Source: Dillenia suffruticosa
Lineage: Eukaryota; Streptophyta; Magnoliopsida; Dilleniales; Dilleniaceae
Direction: 5' to 3'
Length of the DNA stretch: 64,000 nucleotides
Assembly (NCBI GenBank): GCA_033439265.1
Contig: JAVTVX010000020.1
Span: 21,284,001 to 21,348,000 of the forward strand
Positions 3,101 to 12,100 of the stretch are shown here, piece by piece (the stretch's first letter is position 1; each line of letters begins with the position of its first letter). The position numbers and the translations under genes were made by a program. Under the pieces are notes generated by a model. It had not been told where the DNA came from. It saw only the letters and a program-made list of their open reading frames with translations, and searched no databases.

Positions 3101-6100
3101 TATGAAAGAAAAAGGTCTGCCATCAATACCAGGAGATCTTTCCCATTACAATCCTCAAAAGCAAAGACTTTAACTCCACTAAAGACCTACCATCTATCAA
3201 GACTATTGAACAAGAACCCATTCTTGTTCCACGGCAATCATATTAGTCATCTCAGGCTTGCAGTTTAGAGAAAGCAACAGTGATCCCCAAAAGGAGCTTT
3301 GTACGGAAATGACACTAATTTTATAAAAAAATTTTAAAACAATACTATTTAAAAAATATTTACAAAACTAACCCACCTATGTCGTGACGTCGTGACTTGA
3401 ATTCACGACATATATTTAAAACGTAGTATGTCGTGATTTGAAGTCACGACATGGATGCTCATTCTAGTGCCATGTCGTGAGTTGAACTCACGACATACTC
3501 GAACTTAGACCCCCAATCCCTTCTTTTTTTCTCCCTTCTCTTTTTTCTTTCTTTCTTCCCCATTCTGCTTCTCCCTGCTCCGCCGCGGACGAAACCCTTC
3601 TCCGCCTCTGCATGCACGAACTGCAATAGCCAAGGACATCTGCAACCTGGGGGAAATGAATTGATCGCGATCCACTGCTTTTGAAAGTTCCACATGCGAA
3701 ATTTGACGAAGGTAAATTGTTGTTTGTGCTCCTTGAAATTTGAAATTTTATATGTTTAAATTGATTAAATTTTGATATACATTATTCAATTGATATATTA
3801 TTTGTTGATTTAACTATATTTTGGAAATATGTAATTAGATATTAATGTTTTAGGGTTTAGGTTTTTGTTGGAAATGAATGACAAATTAGGGATTAGGATT
3901 TTTTTAATTTGGGATAAAATTAGGATTTAAGGTTTTTTTTATAAATGTATTAAAAGTAAAATTAGTTAGATTTATTAATTGTAGTTAAATAAAATTAGAA
4001 TGTTTTTTGATAAATTTTGTTTATTGTTTGTTGTTTTGTTGTAAATTTAATTATAGGGTTTTAAATGAAAATTATATTAAATTTATTATTTATAGTTAAA
4101 TTTATTATTTATAGTTAAATTTTGTTTATTGTACGGTTCGTAGGAAAAATACTTGTATTTTCTGAAAATATTTTTTTGAAATGTATATTAATAGAATGTT
4201 TTTTGATTTTAAGTAGAAATGGCAGACATGGTGAGATTGTTATGTTACACAAATGATGAAATTGTGAAGGGTAAAAATGGAGTGGGCTATGACCGTGAAC
4301 CTTCGAAGTTGATTCGGGTAAAAAAAGATGTATCTTTTAATGAGTTGGTAACCATGGTCTGTAAGGGGCTTGGTATCAATTCGACAAGACAACACGTAGA
4401 GATATTTCATCATTGCCCTATGTCACACATGCAAGGGGGAATGTAAGGTACGTATTGGTACCGATCAATGATGATGATGACGTTCTGAACTTGATGGAGT
4501 TTGCGGTGGCTATGGGAGTGGGTACAAGTCATGGGTTGTATATAAAGGCATACAATGATCGGACGTTTGTCCCTGTACAACAAGATTGCGATTATGAAGA
4601 AGAATATCCACATATCGAATCTCGAATGGATGTTGCATTAGTAGACATGGATAATGATGTGGATGAAGAAGAATTGGCCGAAGAGGAGGCAGAACAAGAT
4701 GCCGAAGAAGAGGATGATGATGAAGAAGAAGATGGTAGAGAAGCTGGTCGTACTAGTGGTCGTAGTTATGGAAACCAGACGATGTTTGGGTCATCTTCAC
4801 AGCCTGTACCCATTCATGGTGGTAGGAGATATCTCTATAACGGAGTTGATGAGTCAATTCCTTTCATGCGAACTACACCGGGAGGAGATGGTTATGTCAC
4901 TTTTGAGGAAGATTATCGATTGATTGATAGTGAGAGTTTTAATAATGAAGTAAAGAAAAGTATGAGGTTTGAGTCGAAAGATGAACTTATACATTTTGTA
5001 AAAATGTATCATGTGGAGAATCACTATCAATTTCGTGTTGGGAGATCAACCCCTACACTTTGGACAGTGGTATGTACTCAAAGGGACGAAAGTTGTGGGT
5101 GGAGGTTGCGTGCACGTAAAATAAGACTATTTGATGCCTTTGTGATAACTGTTGTGGAGGGACCGCATACATGTGTCAATATTGGGTTGACGCAGGATCA
5201 TAGGCAGTTGGATTCAAATATGATGGCCCGACAGTTTGTTAACTATGTAAGGGAAGACCCAAGTATCAAAGTCTCTTTCCAACGAACCGTTATGACGGAG
5301 AGAACCATGTATGCAGTTTCCCGAAAACGAGTTTGGGCCGCAAAAAGAAGGACGATTGAAATGGTATACGGGAATTAGGATTAATCATACAATGAACTGC
5401 CTAAAGTTTTGAAAGCAATTATGCAAAAGAATCCAGGATCACAAGTGTCATGGAAGTTCGGTCCGGCCCGAGCGAATGGTGAAATGGTGCTTGAAGCTGA
5501 ATTTTGGGCATTTGGTCATAGTATCATGGCATTTAGAAGTTGTCGGCCATTAATAAGTATAGATGGGACTCGCTTGTATGGCAAATACAAGCACAAGTTG
5601 TTGATTGCATGCAGTATGGAAGGAGCGAATCACATAGTGCCGTTGGCATTCGGATTGGTGGATGTAGAGTCACTAGCGTTGTGGTCATGGTTTTTAATGT
5701 GCGTGCGAGACTATGTTGTGTTAGATAGGGAGGGACCAATATGCTTGATTTCAGATCGACATGAAGGGATAAGAGCTACTGTTGCTCGTCCAGAGTTTGG
5801 ATGGTCGCCTCCGCATGCCGTTTGGCGCTTTTGCATGAGGCATGTCACTAGTAACTTTAACACGCATCATAAAAGTCAAACTTGTAAGAGAGTCGCCGTA
5901 ATTGCTGCATTACAACCACAATGCAAGAAATTTGATCTATATATGACGAGAATGAAGGAGATAAAAATTGATGCCCCCGATTACTTCGCGAACATTGACC
6001 CTAAATAGTGGACTCTCTCTCACGATGGTGGCTTTCGTTATGGCTATATGACGACCAATATCAGTGAAAGTTATAATGTTGTGCTAAAAGGTGCAAGGAA

Positions 6101-9100
6101 TCTCCTCGTTTCTGCTTTGGTACCGAAAATATTTTATAATACGGCGAACTATTTTGAAAATAGAATCGTTGAGGCTGAAGCTGGGATGGCAAGAGGAGAG
6201 CGGTATACAAAGTATGCAAATGCCATATTAGGAAGGTGGATGAACACCGTTAACCTTCATACGGTTGTCTATTTTAGTAGGGAGAATGATATTTTCAAGA
6301 TAGAAACAGGTCATAGACAAATACGATATGACCACAAGAGAGGAAATAAACAGATCGTCGACGTCATTAATGAACATTGCACATGTGGAAAATGGCAAAC
6401 GTATAGAATACCTTGCTCACATGCAATCACTGCACTATCACGGACTATGATGGATGTTCTGTAGGAAAATGGTATACGTGGCAACATCAACTTAAAGTGT
6501 ACGAGTTATATTTTTCACCGGTAGGAGATAGATCTGGATGGCCAATCGGATCGTACCCAATCGAGAGTCATAATCGGAGAAGATACATGACACAAATGAA
6601 ATGTAGTATTTGTGGGAGACAAGGTCACAACCGAAGAAATTGCCCAACCATATCGCATTGATATAGATAGTTTTTGTGTTTTAGTTAAAAATTATGTATT
6701 TCTTATTACAACGGATATCATGTATTTGTTTTTCGTATATTTGACTTTTGGTATTTTCAGTTAGAATGTGTTATGACATTCATGTTTATAAATGTGTATT
6801 TCTATTTATTTAAATGATTACTTGTAATCTAAATTAATTGAGCATTTGAAATGTAATTTATTTTTAGCATTACGTATTTGTAATCTAATGTGTTATTTTT
6901 TCTTTCTTCATTTTGCAGATGGATCCAAACCCTTCTGATCCAAGTGTACTCCGGTTACAGCGACAACACCGTTTTTCTCGCCTTTGGGAGGGAGTCGGCA
7001 CGACGGTTACTCTTGCTTGTCGTCGACGCGAGGCCGTGTTACGCCGTTGGGACCACAGTCACATGTCCTTTCTCTTTTGGAGCACTCCGGATTTTTGGGC
7101 ATTGCTCGACTTCGCTTCATTCAGTTCGATTGGCATTTTATCACTGCTCTGGTTGAGCGATGGAGGCCAGAGATGCATATTTTTCACCTTCCCCATGGTG
7201 AGATCACTATTACCCTTCAGGGTATTGAGGTTTTGTTAGGGTTACCTGTGGATGGTCATCCCTCGTTTTGTTACATGCACATGCACGTGAGATTAGGGGG
7301 CGCTAGTTTTGTTACAGATTTGGGGGTGAGAGGATTTCCGTATATGGCTCCTATTCGACGAGGTTTGCACGTAGATAGGGATGGACCACTCGGTTTGCGG
7401 TGGCATGCTCAGTTTGATGTCACTATGTTCCCTACACACATAGTTTCCGTTTATAGGGAGGCACTCGATAGGCAGACGGTAGATCAGGTCATTTGGGTCC
7501 CGTACTCAGATGATGTATTGTCATCCCTCCCTGCCTACTGTCACAGGGGGAGGGATATTTGGCACGCACGGGTTCCTTTGATTTGTTTTAGTATCGTGGG
7601 GTGGCACTTTCCAGATAGGGTGTTACGACAGTTTGAAGGCTTACAGTACGTTCCGGGTGAGTGTGACACCGAGGACAGACTCCACGATACGAGTACGTGG
7701 GGTACTCTAGAGGTTGATTGGTCGACAGCACATGCAGTGTACATAGATCTTTGGAATCACCGTCACGACCATATAGTTCCGCTAGATACCTCCTTCGGAC
7801 CTGCGCTCGATCCTGACTATTCGGTCTGGTTTCGCTCCATCTCCCGCAAATTTGTCGGTCGTCGGGGAGCTTCTTTGACTTACGTGGTAAGTTTTCCTCT
7901 ACTACCTTCTTTTCATTCTCAATCAAAGAATTTAATTTGTTGTTTTAATTATTTTTCGCATTATTGTTTGTAGTGGGACACTTTGCACGAGATACGAGAC
8001 AATCCTGGTGCCGACGTTCGTGGCCTTGCTGAGTCGGCCATCTCGGTTCTGGCAAATGATATAGCACATCTTTTCAGTGATCGCCCCGAGACAGATGGCG
8101 CAGACGGTGGTGATGCAGGCCAAGCACGTGGACGAGGAGGAGGGAGAGGACAGCGTACGAGACCTCGACGCTCATCCGAACATGCGTCACCGCCACCGTC
8201 ACAGCAGCCCGAGAATGTCGCAGGACCTTTTACTACGTTCGGTGAGTCTTCAGATTTCTACACGCCCAGTATTTGATGACTTCTCTCAGGTTTTCACTCC
8301 GGGGGCTCCTCAGAGGGGAGTTCGTCCCGATAGCTTTATGGATGACGGACTAACACAGGGTGTGAGAGATAATGCACCACTGGTGTATCATGTGTCCCCG
8401 CCTATTTTCTCTTATCTCCACCAGCAAGATGTAAGCCCCTCCCAGATCACACAGATAGATGATATGGGATTAGTATCTCGTGATGACTCTATAGGCAGTA
8501 GAGCAGCTTTAGGTCTTAGACAATACACTAGAAGAAGACGACGACATTAATTTTTTATTTTTGTAATTTGTAACTTCTATTAAAATTAATAAAATTAATT
8601 TTATTTCTTTATTCTGTTCATTGTACTTTTTTTAGTACTTTTTGGTTTTTGGAATTTGTTGCTGATCAATTATGATATTTGGACAGTATTGCATATGAAA
8701 TCTGGTTATGAGGTCGAAAATTGGTTGATTTGACCATTATTGGAGTTTGTGGTATTTGTGTTGTGATGTAAATTTAGATAGCAGAATGGTTGATTTGGTC
8801 ACTATCGGAATTTGTGGTGTTTGTGTTGCGTTGTAAATTTGGATAGCAGAATGGTTGATTTGGCGACTATCGGAGTTTGTGGTGTTTGTGTTGTATTGTA
8901 GCGTTTGTTTTGTGTTGTATTATAGCGTTTGTTTTGTGTTGTAAATTTGGACAGCATATAATATGAAAATTGATTTTGGACAGTAGGTAGAAGCATGTCA
9001 TGAGTTCAACTCACGACATGGCATTAGAATGATCATGTCGTGACTTGAAGTCACGACATACCATGTTTTAAACATATGTCGTGACTTCAAGTCACGACAT

Positions 9101-12100
9101 GCATGAATAGTGCATGTCGTGACTTGAAGTCACGGCATAGGTGAGTTAGTTTTGTAAATATTTTTTAAATGATATTGTTTTAAAATTTTTTTATAAAATT
9201 AGTGTTATTTCCGTACAAAGCTCCCCCAAAAGAGCCTATCCAAATGAGTAACTCACTAACCTTCACAAGCAAAACTTAGTAAACTTAATGACATGAAAAG
9301 GAAAGAAGAAAATTAACCCTTCCCTTTGCAACCAATCAGCGTATCAAGGATGAACAAAGTCCTCTTAAGTGCCAACAGCAATTACCATTTCACAAGAATA
9401 ATTACCCCACTCGAATTCAGTCTATACCTTCTACACAAAAATACCACCTTTACAAACATTAGAATTAGAAGGCCACTTAATTAACCTTCTTCTGACATAT
9501 ATAATACAGAAGTGCCACCATTCTAGGTGCACTAGCTAAAGGAAAACGGCATCATCATGTAATCTTCTTCTCATAAATATTCTAAAATTTAACTACTCTG
9601 CTCCTTCTTGGCCCATATTATCAGCAAGCTCATCTATATCTCACGAAGCAAGACTTTTCACAAGTTCATCCACTCCAACCCCAGATCTTAAAGGGATAAG
9701 CGAGGATAGCAATGTTGGCATCTTACTTTATTTTAGGCCAAAACTACAAATACTCCCCCAAAGTTTTATTGCAATTAATTACTCCCAGGGCTTTTAAAAT
9801 AGAAGTCAATGAACCCCATACGTGGATGCGGTTGGGTCCCCCCCACTTAAAGATCACAAACCCTTTTCTCTCTCTTCCTCATCTCTCTCCAGCAAGAATA
9901 TTGATTTTTCTGATGAAAAAGAACACAAGGGGGAGAGAGAAAAGGAAGGATTTAGATCACTGCAGGAGAGAGAAATCCAAATGAAAAAGAATAAATTTGG
10001 CCAGAAGAATCAAAAGTCCATCCCATTATCTACTTAAGTTGCATGAGAAAAAGTGCAGATGATTCTCGTTGTATGATCAAAGTTTAGTTGAAGCATATCG
10101 CTAAGAATCTTTGTTTGACCAAGCACCAGGAAATTCTGGCTTCCATTATCTATTAGGCAGCAACGAGAATGCCCAAGACTTAAGAGTTCTTCACTCTAAA
10201 TGAATCTGCGGCTGCATGCCACTACTAAGTTTGAGATATTGATGCACAGAAATAAACCTGCCTGTGTTGAAACTAGCACTTCAATTTCTTTATCTTTACT
10301 ATGGCCAGTCTCAAACCCACCCAGTTAAGGAGGAGGGCTACATTAGGTTGACAGCTATCTTAAAATTTGAACAAACAATCATGATTTATGCACAGGAACA
10401 AGTAAAAAAAATTCAAGATCATGAGCATAAGTAATATGACACTACCAAACTAATAGATAAGTCAATGGCACCCTTTTTGACATCCATAAAAAAGTCACCT
10501 CAAAATTCAGAATTGGCATCTGAAGAAAAAAAAAAGTTAACAGTCAAAGCATAACTTGGAGAAAAAGACACTAGTACAATTCAAGGAAACATAAATCTGA
10601 AAGTGGATTCACCACAAAACGAGTATAAAAGGAGTTGCTTATATAAATTTTTCAAAATGTGATACATCATACTCCATGCAGTTGTTACAAATTTGGACTG
10701 TGAGGAAAGAACCTGCTTAGACACTATTGATACCCTAAAGTAAAACATGTAACATAGCAAGGAAGCAAGAGTACCATAGTTGAGCTTAATGAAAGAGACT
10801 CAAACTTACCTTCAGTGAAAATATGAAGGATGAGTCATCCCTACCCAAATGCTCCTGCAGATTATGGAGAAAATGAGGTGATGTTTGATAAAAGTTGAAA
10901 ATTTAGTATTGAATTTTGACACTAAATCAATCAAGGTGCTGAATTTGTTAAATGCATGACTATTAATACAAGTTGCTGAATATGCTGAACTCTAAGTTAA
11001 ATCAAATAGATTATTATCCTATTATCTATTTCATTTATCAAAGTAGATAAATGAATCAAAACTTTTTTGGATTTTTTTTTTTTTTTGCTTAATAGATTTG
11101 GCCAGGTTTCTCTATCTTAACATTTTGATGCCTAAATCTTAATCCTACTTGAAATTCAGCACTTAATTTTTGTTGTTATCAAACATATTTAACATAATAA
11201 CTAATCAATCAATTTTCAGCACTTAATGGTTATCAAACAACACCAAAGTTACCATTCAAAAATGTGTGAAGGCAGCGGCGGCAGCCATGGGGGAGGGAGT
11301 TTCGGTTCACATCAAAGACCCCAGATGGGCTCTTATCTAGAGAAATCAATGATTTATCTAGATGTCAAGCAAATGACTAGTGACATCAACCTGGATATAT
11401 TATTAAATGAAGCTAGTAACAGAATTACAACACAAACCCCCACACCTCAGCCAACAGGAGTTTTTGAGGTGGAAAGTTGGCCTAATTTTAGTTTTTGATT
11501 GAGAATTTAAGCTTGTATCTACACTCCAGTACAACTTTTAGAGAAAAACATATTGCTGGTTAAATCTGTTCATGCTCTCAATTATACTTCCACCTAAGGG
11601 TGCAGTTCATGACTTCACCAAGAACAGATTAGAAAAAGAAAAGGAAAAATGGGATCAAGCAAAGGCCAAGAGAGAATATTTAGGTTAGCTTCTGAAAGGA
11701 GAGGAAACAAACGGGACGGATAATATTTAAAAAATAATCACATGGATGACCATTCACCATCATATTTGCTCTTGCTGTTCTATCCCATTTCTTCCTTTTA
11801 CGTCTTGATTGGAAAAGGAAGAACTTTATTCACAATAAAAGAAATACAGAAAAGAGGGGGAGAGCATCCTAACAATTGAAATAGACCAAAAGCACAAAAA
11901 CTTGTAGGATTATTAACAAGTCATAAAGCAATTCTCCACACTGTAAAAGATTCTCCGAAACCTTTCCCTCCAAACCAATATGGCTAGAAGAAGCATCCTA
12001 ACAATTCTCCCCTTTGCTGTAAAACCCTTAAACCACTGCAAAGCCACAACTCAGAGCTTGAAGTCACCCGACATAGGTGCAAAAGAGAAAATTTTCCCCC

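Follow-up and report, generated by a model that had tools for sequence, protein, structure and literature searches.

A stretch of 64,000 nucleotides of the Dillenia suffruticosa genome (contig JAVTVX010000020.1, positions 21,284,001 to 21,348,000; hereafter the window) contains, at positions 3294-9223, a 5,930-bp Mutator-like element (MULE) with both ends complete. Between its terminal inverted repeats (TIRs) lie two genes in the same direction: a decayed transposase gene and, downstream of it, a decayed two-exon gene for a plant mobile domain (PMD) protein. From comparison with its relatives in the same genome, the element is read as a decayed copy of a plant MULE family that carries these two genes in this order, a reading to which we assign a probability of about 85%. 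The two-gene make-up rests on what comparison shows: some copies have open frames, a single arrangement is shared, both genes are constrained, and the PMDs of two subfamilies group together. The window copy has the following features (strand in brackets).

3285-3293 (no strand): target-site duplication, left copy, 9 bp, CCCCAAAAG
3294-3391 (+): left TIR, outer part
3389-3499 (+): left inner repeat, three palindromes centred on TTGAA
3712-4216 (+): possible 5' leader intron, suggested by its sequence; donor GAAG/GTAAATT, acceptor TTTTAAGTAG just upstream of the transposase ATG
4219-6661 (+): decayed transposase gene (MULE and SWIM domains, zinc knuckle)
6919-7886 (+): PMD exon 1, decayed; 10-bp deletion near 7065 and ~330-bp deletion near 7269
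7887-7973 (+): PMD intron, GTAAGT...TTGTAG
7974-8550 (+): PMD exon 2, with a basic tail; 1-bp insertion near 8265
8992-9143 (-): right inner repeat, four palindromes centred on TTSAA
9126-9223 (-): right TIR, outer part
9224-9232 (no strand): target-site duplication, right copy, 9 bp, CCCCAAAAG

The two flanking copies of the duplication match at 9/9 positions, and the chance of a perfect duplication of 8-11 nt at two random points of the window is 0.0001. The TIRs are 94% complementary over 99 nt, one flanking base counted in, and more matching blocks follow inward, as far as ~206 nt from the end on the left and 232 nt on the right. Three Pfam families match above their cut-offs, namely MULE (PF10551, 2.4e-13), SWIM (PF04434, 4.4e-7) and PMD (PF10536, 3.6e-41), while the window scores for the zinc knuckle and for DBD_Tnp_Mut fall below theirs. 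A duplication of 8-11 bp, long TIRs and a DDE domain with a SWIM finger are the features by which a MULE is recognized, and the PMD gene lies within the element, as in PMD-carrying plant MULEs. An earlier note, made from the letters of the window, had described the ends, the duplication, the transposase and a same-strand PMD gene with its own intron, all of which are in place. It had also called the element structurally whole; this holds for the ends but not for the interior, where pieces of both genes have been deleted.

The transposase is broken by a slip in a G-run near 4436, stops at 5376-5378 and 6006-6008, a 7-bp deletion near 6460 and a 117-bp deletion near 6561. The earlier note had called the transposase decayed; the PMD gene is broken as well, its product being short by about 109 residues. 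Relative to its sister copy L031 (G000:C20:10782880-10789183), the window copy lacks the 117 bp of transposase, ~330 bp of PMD exon 1 (19 versus 347 nt) and smaller pieces, and the aligned parts of both genes are 93-94% identical. The PMD intron is assigned from its GT..AG ends and from its matching position in L031; the second subfamily, described below, also carries a GTAAGT donor there. Two other explanations of the damage were rejected. The ~330-bp length difference in exon 1 is not a lost intron, as the missing stretch is coding sequence. An early frame change in the transposase of many copies had suggested a programmed frameshift; however, the frame runs open through this point in L031, L032 and the second subfamily, and the cause is a G-run of variable length.

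To place the window copy among its relatives, the outer 100 bp of its left end were searched against the genome (596 Mb in 37 contigs), giving 40 scored matches of 294 candidates, two of which are the window's own ends. Twenty loci holding 30 of the 40 matches were fetched, and 8 matches lie outside this set. Transposase sequence was found in 19 of the 20 loci and PMD in 18, that is, in 18 of those 19; L020 has neither a PMD nor a second end in the fetched stretch, and L028 has neither transposase nor PMD. Sister copies sharing the ends are therefore present, as the earlier note had envisaged, and the outcome under which it would have given up its reading, no shared ends or a PMD single-copy here, was not observed. 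Over 23 elements with paired ends, a set made up of the window copy, the loci above and further fetched relatives, 14 duplications are perfect (9-10 bp), four have one mismatch and five elements have none. In the window's own family, 11 of the 20 other paired-end copies have perfect duplications, and most of these are also decayed.

A genome-wide search with the transposase domain returned 150 scored matches of 1,093 candidates. At least 96 of the 150 have a same-strand PMD match 0.7-4.5 kb downstream, and among the PMD matches listed none is antisense within 6 kb of a transposase and none lies upstream. The figure of 96 is a lower bound, since it derives from two lists of PMD matches with 117 candidates scored in each; L022, for instance, was counted as PMD-less in this pairing and yet holds a PMD by the fetched-locus comparison. 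These counts bear on the simplest rival account, that PMD is a fragment of a host gene captured by chance in the manner of Pack-MULEs, in this copy or a few copies. MULEs do take up host genes (PMC6446971), and the PMD of the window copy is broken. Still, a PMD in 18 of 19 fetched transposase loci and one arrangement in at least 96 of 150 genome matches speak against chance capture, as do the purifying selection between subfamilies and the grouping of their PMDs discussed below. We regard it as very improbable.

Two of the fetched loci depart from the common structure. L028:969-1646 is a 678-bp element with family ends, nine half-site matches and a perfect 9-bp duplication, and without matched coding sequence; it is a candidate for a small derivative mobilised in trans. 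L021:2298-8689 is rearranged, with the end of PMD exon 1 and exon 2 inverted near the other end, as if one end of the element had been duplicated in inverse orientation.

Open reading frames are retained in several relatives; the earlier note had asked whether any sister has an open transposase. L031 is 6,304 bp long, its TIRs match at 98.6% over 219 nt, and its frames are open for a transposase of 857 aa and a PMD of 464 + 191 aa. A second subfamily of ~8.0-kb elements with ends GAGAAATGTACC has frames of 870 aa for the transposase and 490 + 180 aa for the PMD; all these lengths run from stop to stop and include some non-coding sequence. Eleven second-subfamily loci are free of stops in both the 870-aa transposase frame and the 490-aa PMD frame, exon 2 being seen in the two fetched copies only. 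These two copies are 99.76% identical over one 7,553-nt block (98.3% over 8,089 nt when more flanking sequence is included); of 2,544 transposase positions, 2 differ between them. The second subfamily looks recently active, as judged from this near-identity. PF10551 and PF04434 score above cut-off in L031 and L029 as in the window, and PF10536 reaches 8.3e-82 in L031 and 2.7e-87 in L029. Near-identical members of the second subfamily are L029 with L033 and L034 (G000:C19), and L030 with L035 and L036 (G000:C5), several of them open in both genes.

The ratio of nonsynonymous to synonymous substitution rates (dN/dS) was estimated between L031 and the second subfamily. It amounts to 0.124 (0.096-0.155) for the transposase, 0.164 (0.113-0.221) for PMD exon 1 and 0.292 (0.161-0.443) for PMD exon 2; an alternative alignment gave 0.12, 0.17 and 0.42, respectively. 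In a tree of PMDs, those of both subfamilies group at 98/97 support, apart from seven other PMDs of the genome. Among the latter, the frame at L041 (G000:C13:1590300-1592400) is 50-51% identical to the element PMDs and nearer to them than the other six compared; it could be related to the donor gene, or belong to a different element.

Several observations weigh against the two-gene reading. Between-subfamily dS is high (1.2-1.4), which makes the ratios rough, and the constraint on exon 2 is weaker and depends on the alignment (0.29 versus 0.42). The transposases of L031 and L032 give a ratio of 0.62 (0.35-1.10). Ratios among members of the window subfamily lie mostly at 0.4-0.8, and stops occur in most copies; recent constraint in this subfamily is unsupported by its ratios. 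The PMD tree is built from nine rows of one genome and 192 columns, and 54 of the 150 transposase matches have no PMD among the matches listed. Despite the rough values, both genes have been constrained since the subfamilies split. The simplest reading is that the ancestor of the two subfamilies already carried PMD, which has been retained ever since. Because copies with open frames exist, the PMD is constrained between subfamilies and it is found in 18 of the 20 end-sharing loci, it is evidently a maintained gene of the element and not a chance capture. A Pack-MULE fragment would be expected in few copies and free of constraint, and the PMD here departs from both.

The arrangement of the two genes was further examined at their starts. 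The transposase ATG follows TTTTAAGTAG/AA in the window copy and in most family copies of the alignment, and TTTATAG/AATA in the second subfamily. The PMD ATG was located by a strict pattern in 11 of 22 elements; AG stands directly 5' of it in 10 of these and AT in L023, and the second subfamily has TTTCAG/ATG. The putative leader donor GAAG/GTAAATT lies ~415 bp into the window element. One leader exon may be spliced to either gene, as such acceptor-like sites would allow. A point against a common leader for both genes is that the donor was located by strict match in 8 of 22 elements, none of them from the second subfamily. A transposase-PMD fusion in a single frame was rejected, as the transposase frame has a stop of its own in the two open elements compared, 246 and 229 nt short of the ATG of PMD; this rejection covers a single reading frame, not fusion by splicing.

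The manner in which the window copy decayed has a bearing on how it moved. Eight lesions were compared with 20 other aligned copies (other 1-bp indels of the window copy against L031 lie outside this comparison), and seven occur in no other copy, although some copies lack the stretch concerned. The eighth is the G-run slip near 4436, and 9 of the 20 copies share its run length. With seven lesions seen in no other copy, the window copy may have been intact when inserted. A star-like tree was obtained from 16 copies, most of its internal branches being weakly supported, and the terminal branch of the window copy measures 0.038 substitutions per site, which makes an unmutated pair of 9-bp duplications unremarkable. 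From the 176 window changes against the prevailing letter of the family, 117 are G:C to A:T, an excess as expected of methylated DNA. The picture agrees with a burst of elements that then decayed independently of one another.

The earlier note had taken the perfect duplication beside a dead transposase as a sign that the copy moved with help from another. This step finds no support, given that seven of the eight lesions were seen in no other aligned copy and given the branch length above. A stricter version, in which the copy was dead before insertion and moved solely by help in trans, draws on the shared short G-run and on internally deleted family copies (L011, L028) with perfect duplications. 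It has to contend with the seven lesions found in no other aligned copy, with a G-run of length 5, 6 or 7 in the family, where slips may be independent, and with the star-like, weakly supported tree, and we consider it unlikely. The data on the window copy are compatible with movement with or without trans help; for trans mobilisation at some point in the family, L028 is a better indication than the window copy.

The terminal repeats of both subfamilies contain arrays of palindromes. The self-complementary pattern TCGTGANTTNAANTCACGA has 776 sites in the genome, whereas the same pattern read backwards has none. In 22 elements, palindromes with arms of at least 10 nt occur at 3-14 per kb in the end 500 nt and at 0-0.91 per kb inside, with L028 being shorter than two 500-nt ends and one A/T-rich match per second-subfamily copy included. 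A half-site search of 20 window-family elements yielded 208 distinct 25-mers, of which the 161 with at most 4/12 arm mismatches were kept and 47 dropped. The inner TT..AA pairs are held in 160 and 161 of the 161 sites. Pair 10-16, which lies outside the half-site, is complementary in 117 of 161 (C.G 79, G.C 31, T.A 7), and 32 of the 44 non-complementary cases are C.A or T.G. The second subfamily follows the same palindrome plan with different arms (GTCGCGGGTTGAACCCGCGAC; TTCCGCG types). Symmetry that is kept while the sequence changes argues for a symmetric binding protein.

Two points weigh against this interpretation: the mismatch filter behind the pair table (161 of 208) favours complementarity, and some of the symmetry can come from copying of a unit that was symmetric to begin with. 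Repeats of this palindrome kind expand easily. The palindromes could accordingly be mere by-products of tandem duplication and foldback formation, bound by no protein, and the variation in their number among ends and elements suits this account. It fits less well with symmetry that persists while the arms differ by subfamily (TGTCGTGACTTGAAGTCACGACA versus TGTCGCGGGTTGAACCCGCGACA and TTCCGCG types) and with an arm pair that changes in step, and we hold it to be rather unlikely. On the binding-protein reading, the arrays would dock an element-encoded protein as a symmetric dimer, most likely the transposase, a choice of binder on which the sequence leaves us evenly balanced. No plant PMD-MULE with such palindromes turned up in the literature searched, the nearest case being the mosquito element Muta1.

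Outside the family, the PMD genes L038 and L039 (G000:C16 and C34) are 96% identical over the compared frame on different contigs, as a recent duplication or a whole-genome duplication would leave. A search with actinidin gave best-scoring matches of 55-60% identity and none above 67%, and kiwifruit was accordingly rejected as the host. In the same search, papain-like protease frames succeeding one another at G000:C31:18084197-18323000, with scores that recur unchanged, suggest a tandem array.

As to function, the transposase, with its DDE, SWIM and zinc-knuckle modules, would cut and paste the element via its ends. The PMD protein would aid the spread of the element, most likely by weakening the silencing that the host directs at the element itself, as Ikeda et al. 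2017 proposed for other MULEs. We advance this anti-silencing role tentatively, at somewhat less than even odds. The contending view, to which we give a slightly lower probability, is that PMD is a transposition cofactor acting in insertion or complex assembly, much as has been proposed for mudrB. PMD exon 1 is constrained nearly as strongly as the transposase, which would suit a cofactor, as would a basic exon 2 product with an RGRRRGRGQR stretch and, in L031, an RRRRRH end; mudrB is described as apparently needed for integration (PMC6446971). Against a cofactor stands the reported involvement of MAIN and MAIL1, PMD proteins encoded by host genes, in silencing and gene expression (PMC5418596, PMC7156037). 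The earlier note had linked the element PMD to MAIN/MAIL: this link amounts to a shared domain. A search of solved structures for relatives of PMD returned none, its one match having an E-value of 0.13.

The mudrA and mudrB genes of MuDR in maize are convergent. By description, the present element differs in that both genes run in the same direction and the second is a PMD. Two genes, a 9-bp duplication and long TIRs are common to both (in part after PMC6446971). PMD-carrying MULEs as such are already in print. For grasses and Amborella, Ikeda et al. 2017 (PMC5418596) described fusions of PMD-C with MULE transposases and suggested an anti-silencing use, an idea restated in a review (PMC8616336). 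Nicolau et al. (PMC7156037) reported mainly genic PMD-C in eudicots. The MULE-PMD-C proteins resemble our case in uniting a MULE transposase with a PMD, but are described as fusions, whereas here, likened by description, the frames are separate and each ATG follows an acceptor-like site.

According to Dupeyron et al. 2019 (PMC6446971), several groups of plant MULEs have PMD in most of their members, its orientation being given as antisense sometimes, often or mostly. Table 1 of that paper also records PMD and/or DUF for half of the VANDAL group. The PMD-carrying groups 46-50, with 42 and half of 45, are likewise flowering-plant MULEs: the duplication, where stated, is mostly 9 bp, the TIRs measure tens to hundreds of bp, a SWIM or CCHC finger occurs, and most members of groups 47-50 carry PMD. 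There, PMD is partly antisense; here, likened by description, it is sense and downstream among the matches listed. VANDAL elements with VANC (PMC5735166, PMC10398659) also combine a MULE with an extra protein gene and short non-coding motif arrays that differ by subfamily. Compared by description, the VANC21 motifs are 9 bases long, non-self-complementary and in one orientation, situated in introns and upstream, and the VANDAL TIRs are called degenerate. Muta1 of Aedes (PMC5225508) has long TIRs composed of a terminal palindromic motif and subterminal repeats, but these are nine 12-bp tandem repeats beside one transposase gene, in contrast to the palindromes of 21-29 nt found here. The layout of two sense genes, each ATG with an acceptor-like site in front of it, the measured PMD constraint and the TIR palindrome arrays, whose arms differ by subfamily while symmetry persists, are possibly new, none having been found in the literature searched.

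PMD proteins help to silence transposons in Arabidopsis, and element-borne PMDs have been suggested in print as a counter to this. A single genome here offers an old, decayed burst together with a second subfamily in which several copies are open in both genes, a PMD maintained by selection as a gene of the element, and a candidate DNA target in the terminal repeats. The counter-silencing suggestion thereby becomes testable with one protein and one 25-bp probe. In a bolder version, which the sequences make conceivable and which we judge improbable, the PMD would be a sequence-specific anti-silencing factor that binds the symmetric TIR sites as a dimer and frees the element from methylation, arms and PMD having changed together in each subfamily. 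If this were true, the MAIN/MAIL silencing proteins of the host and the PMDs of the elements would be engaged in one arms race with a readable DNA target.

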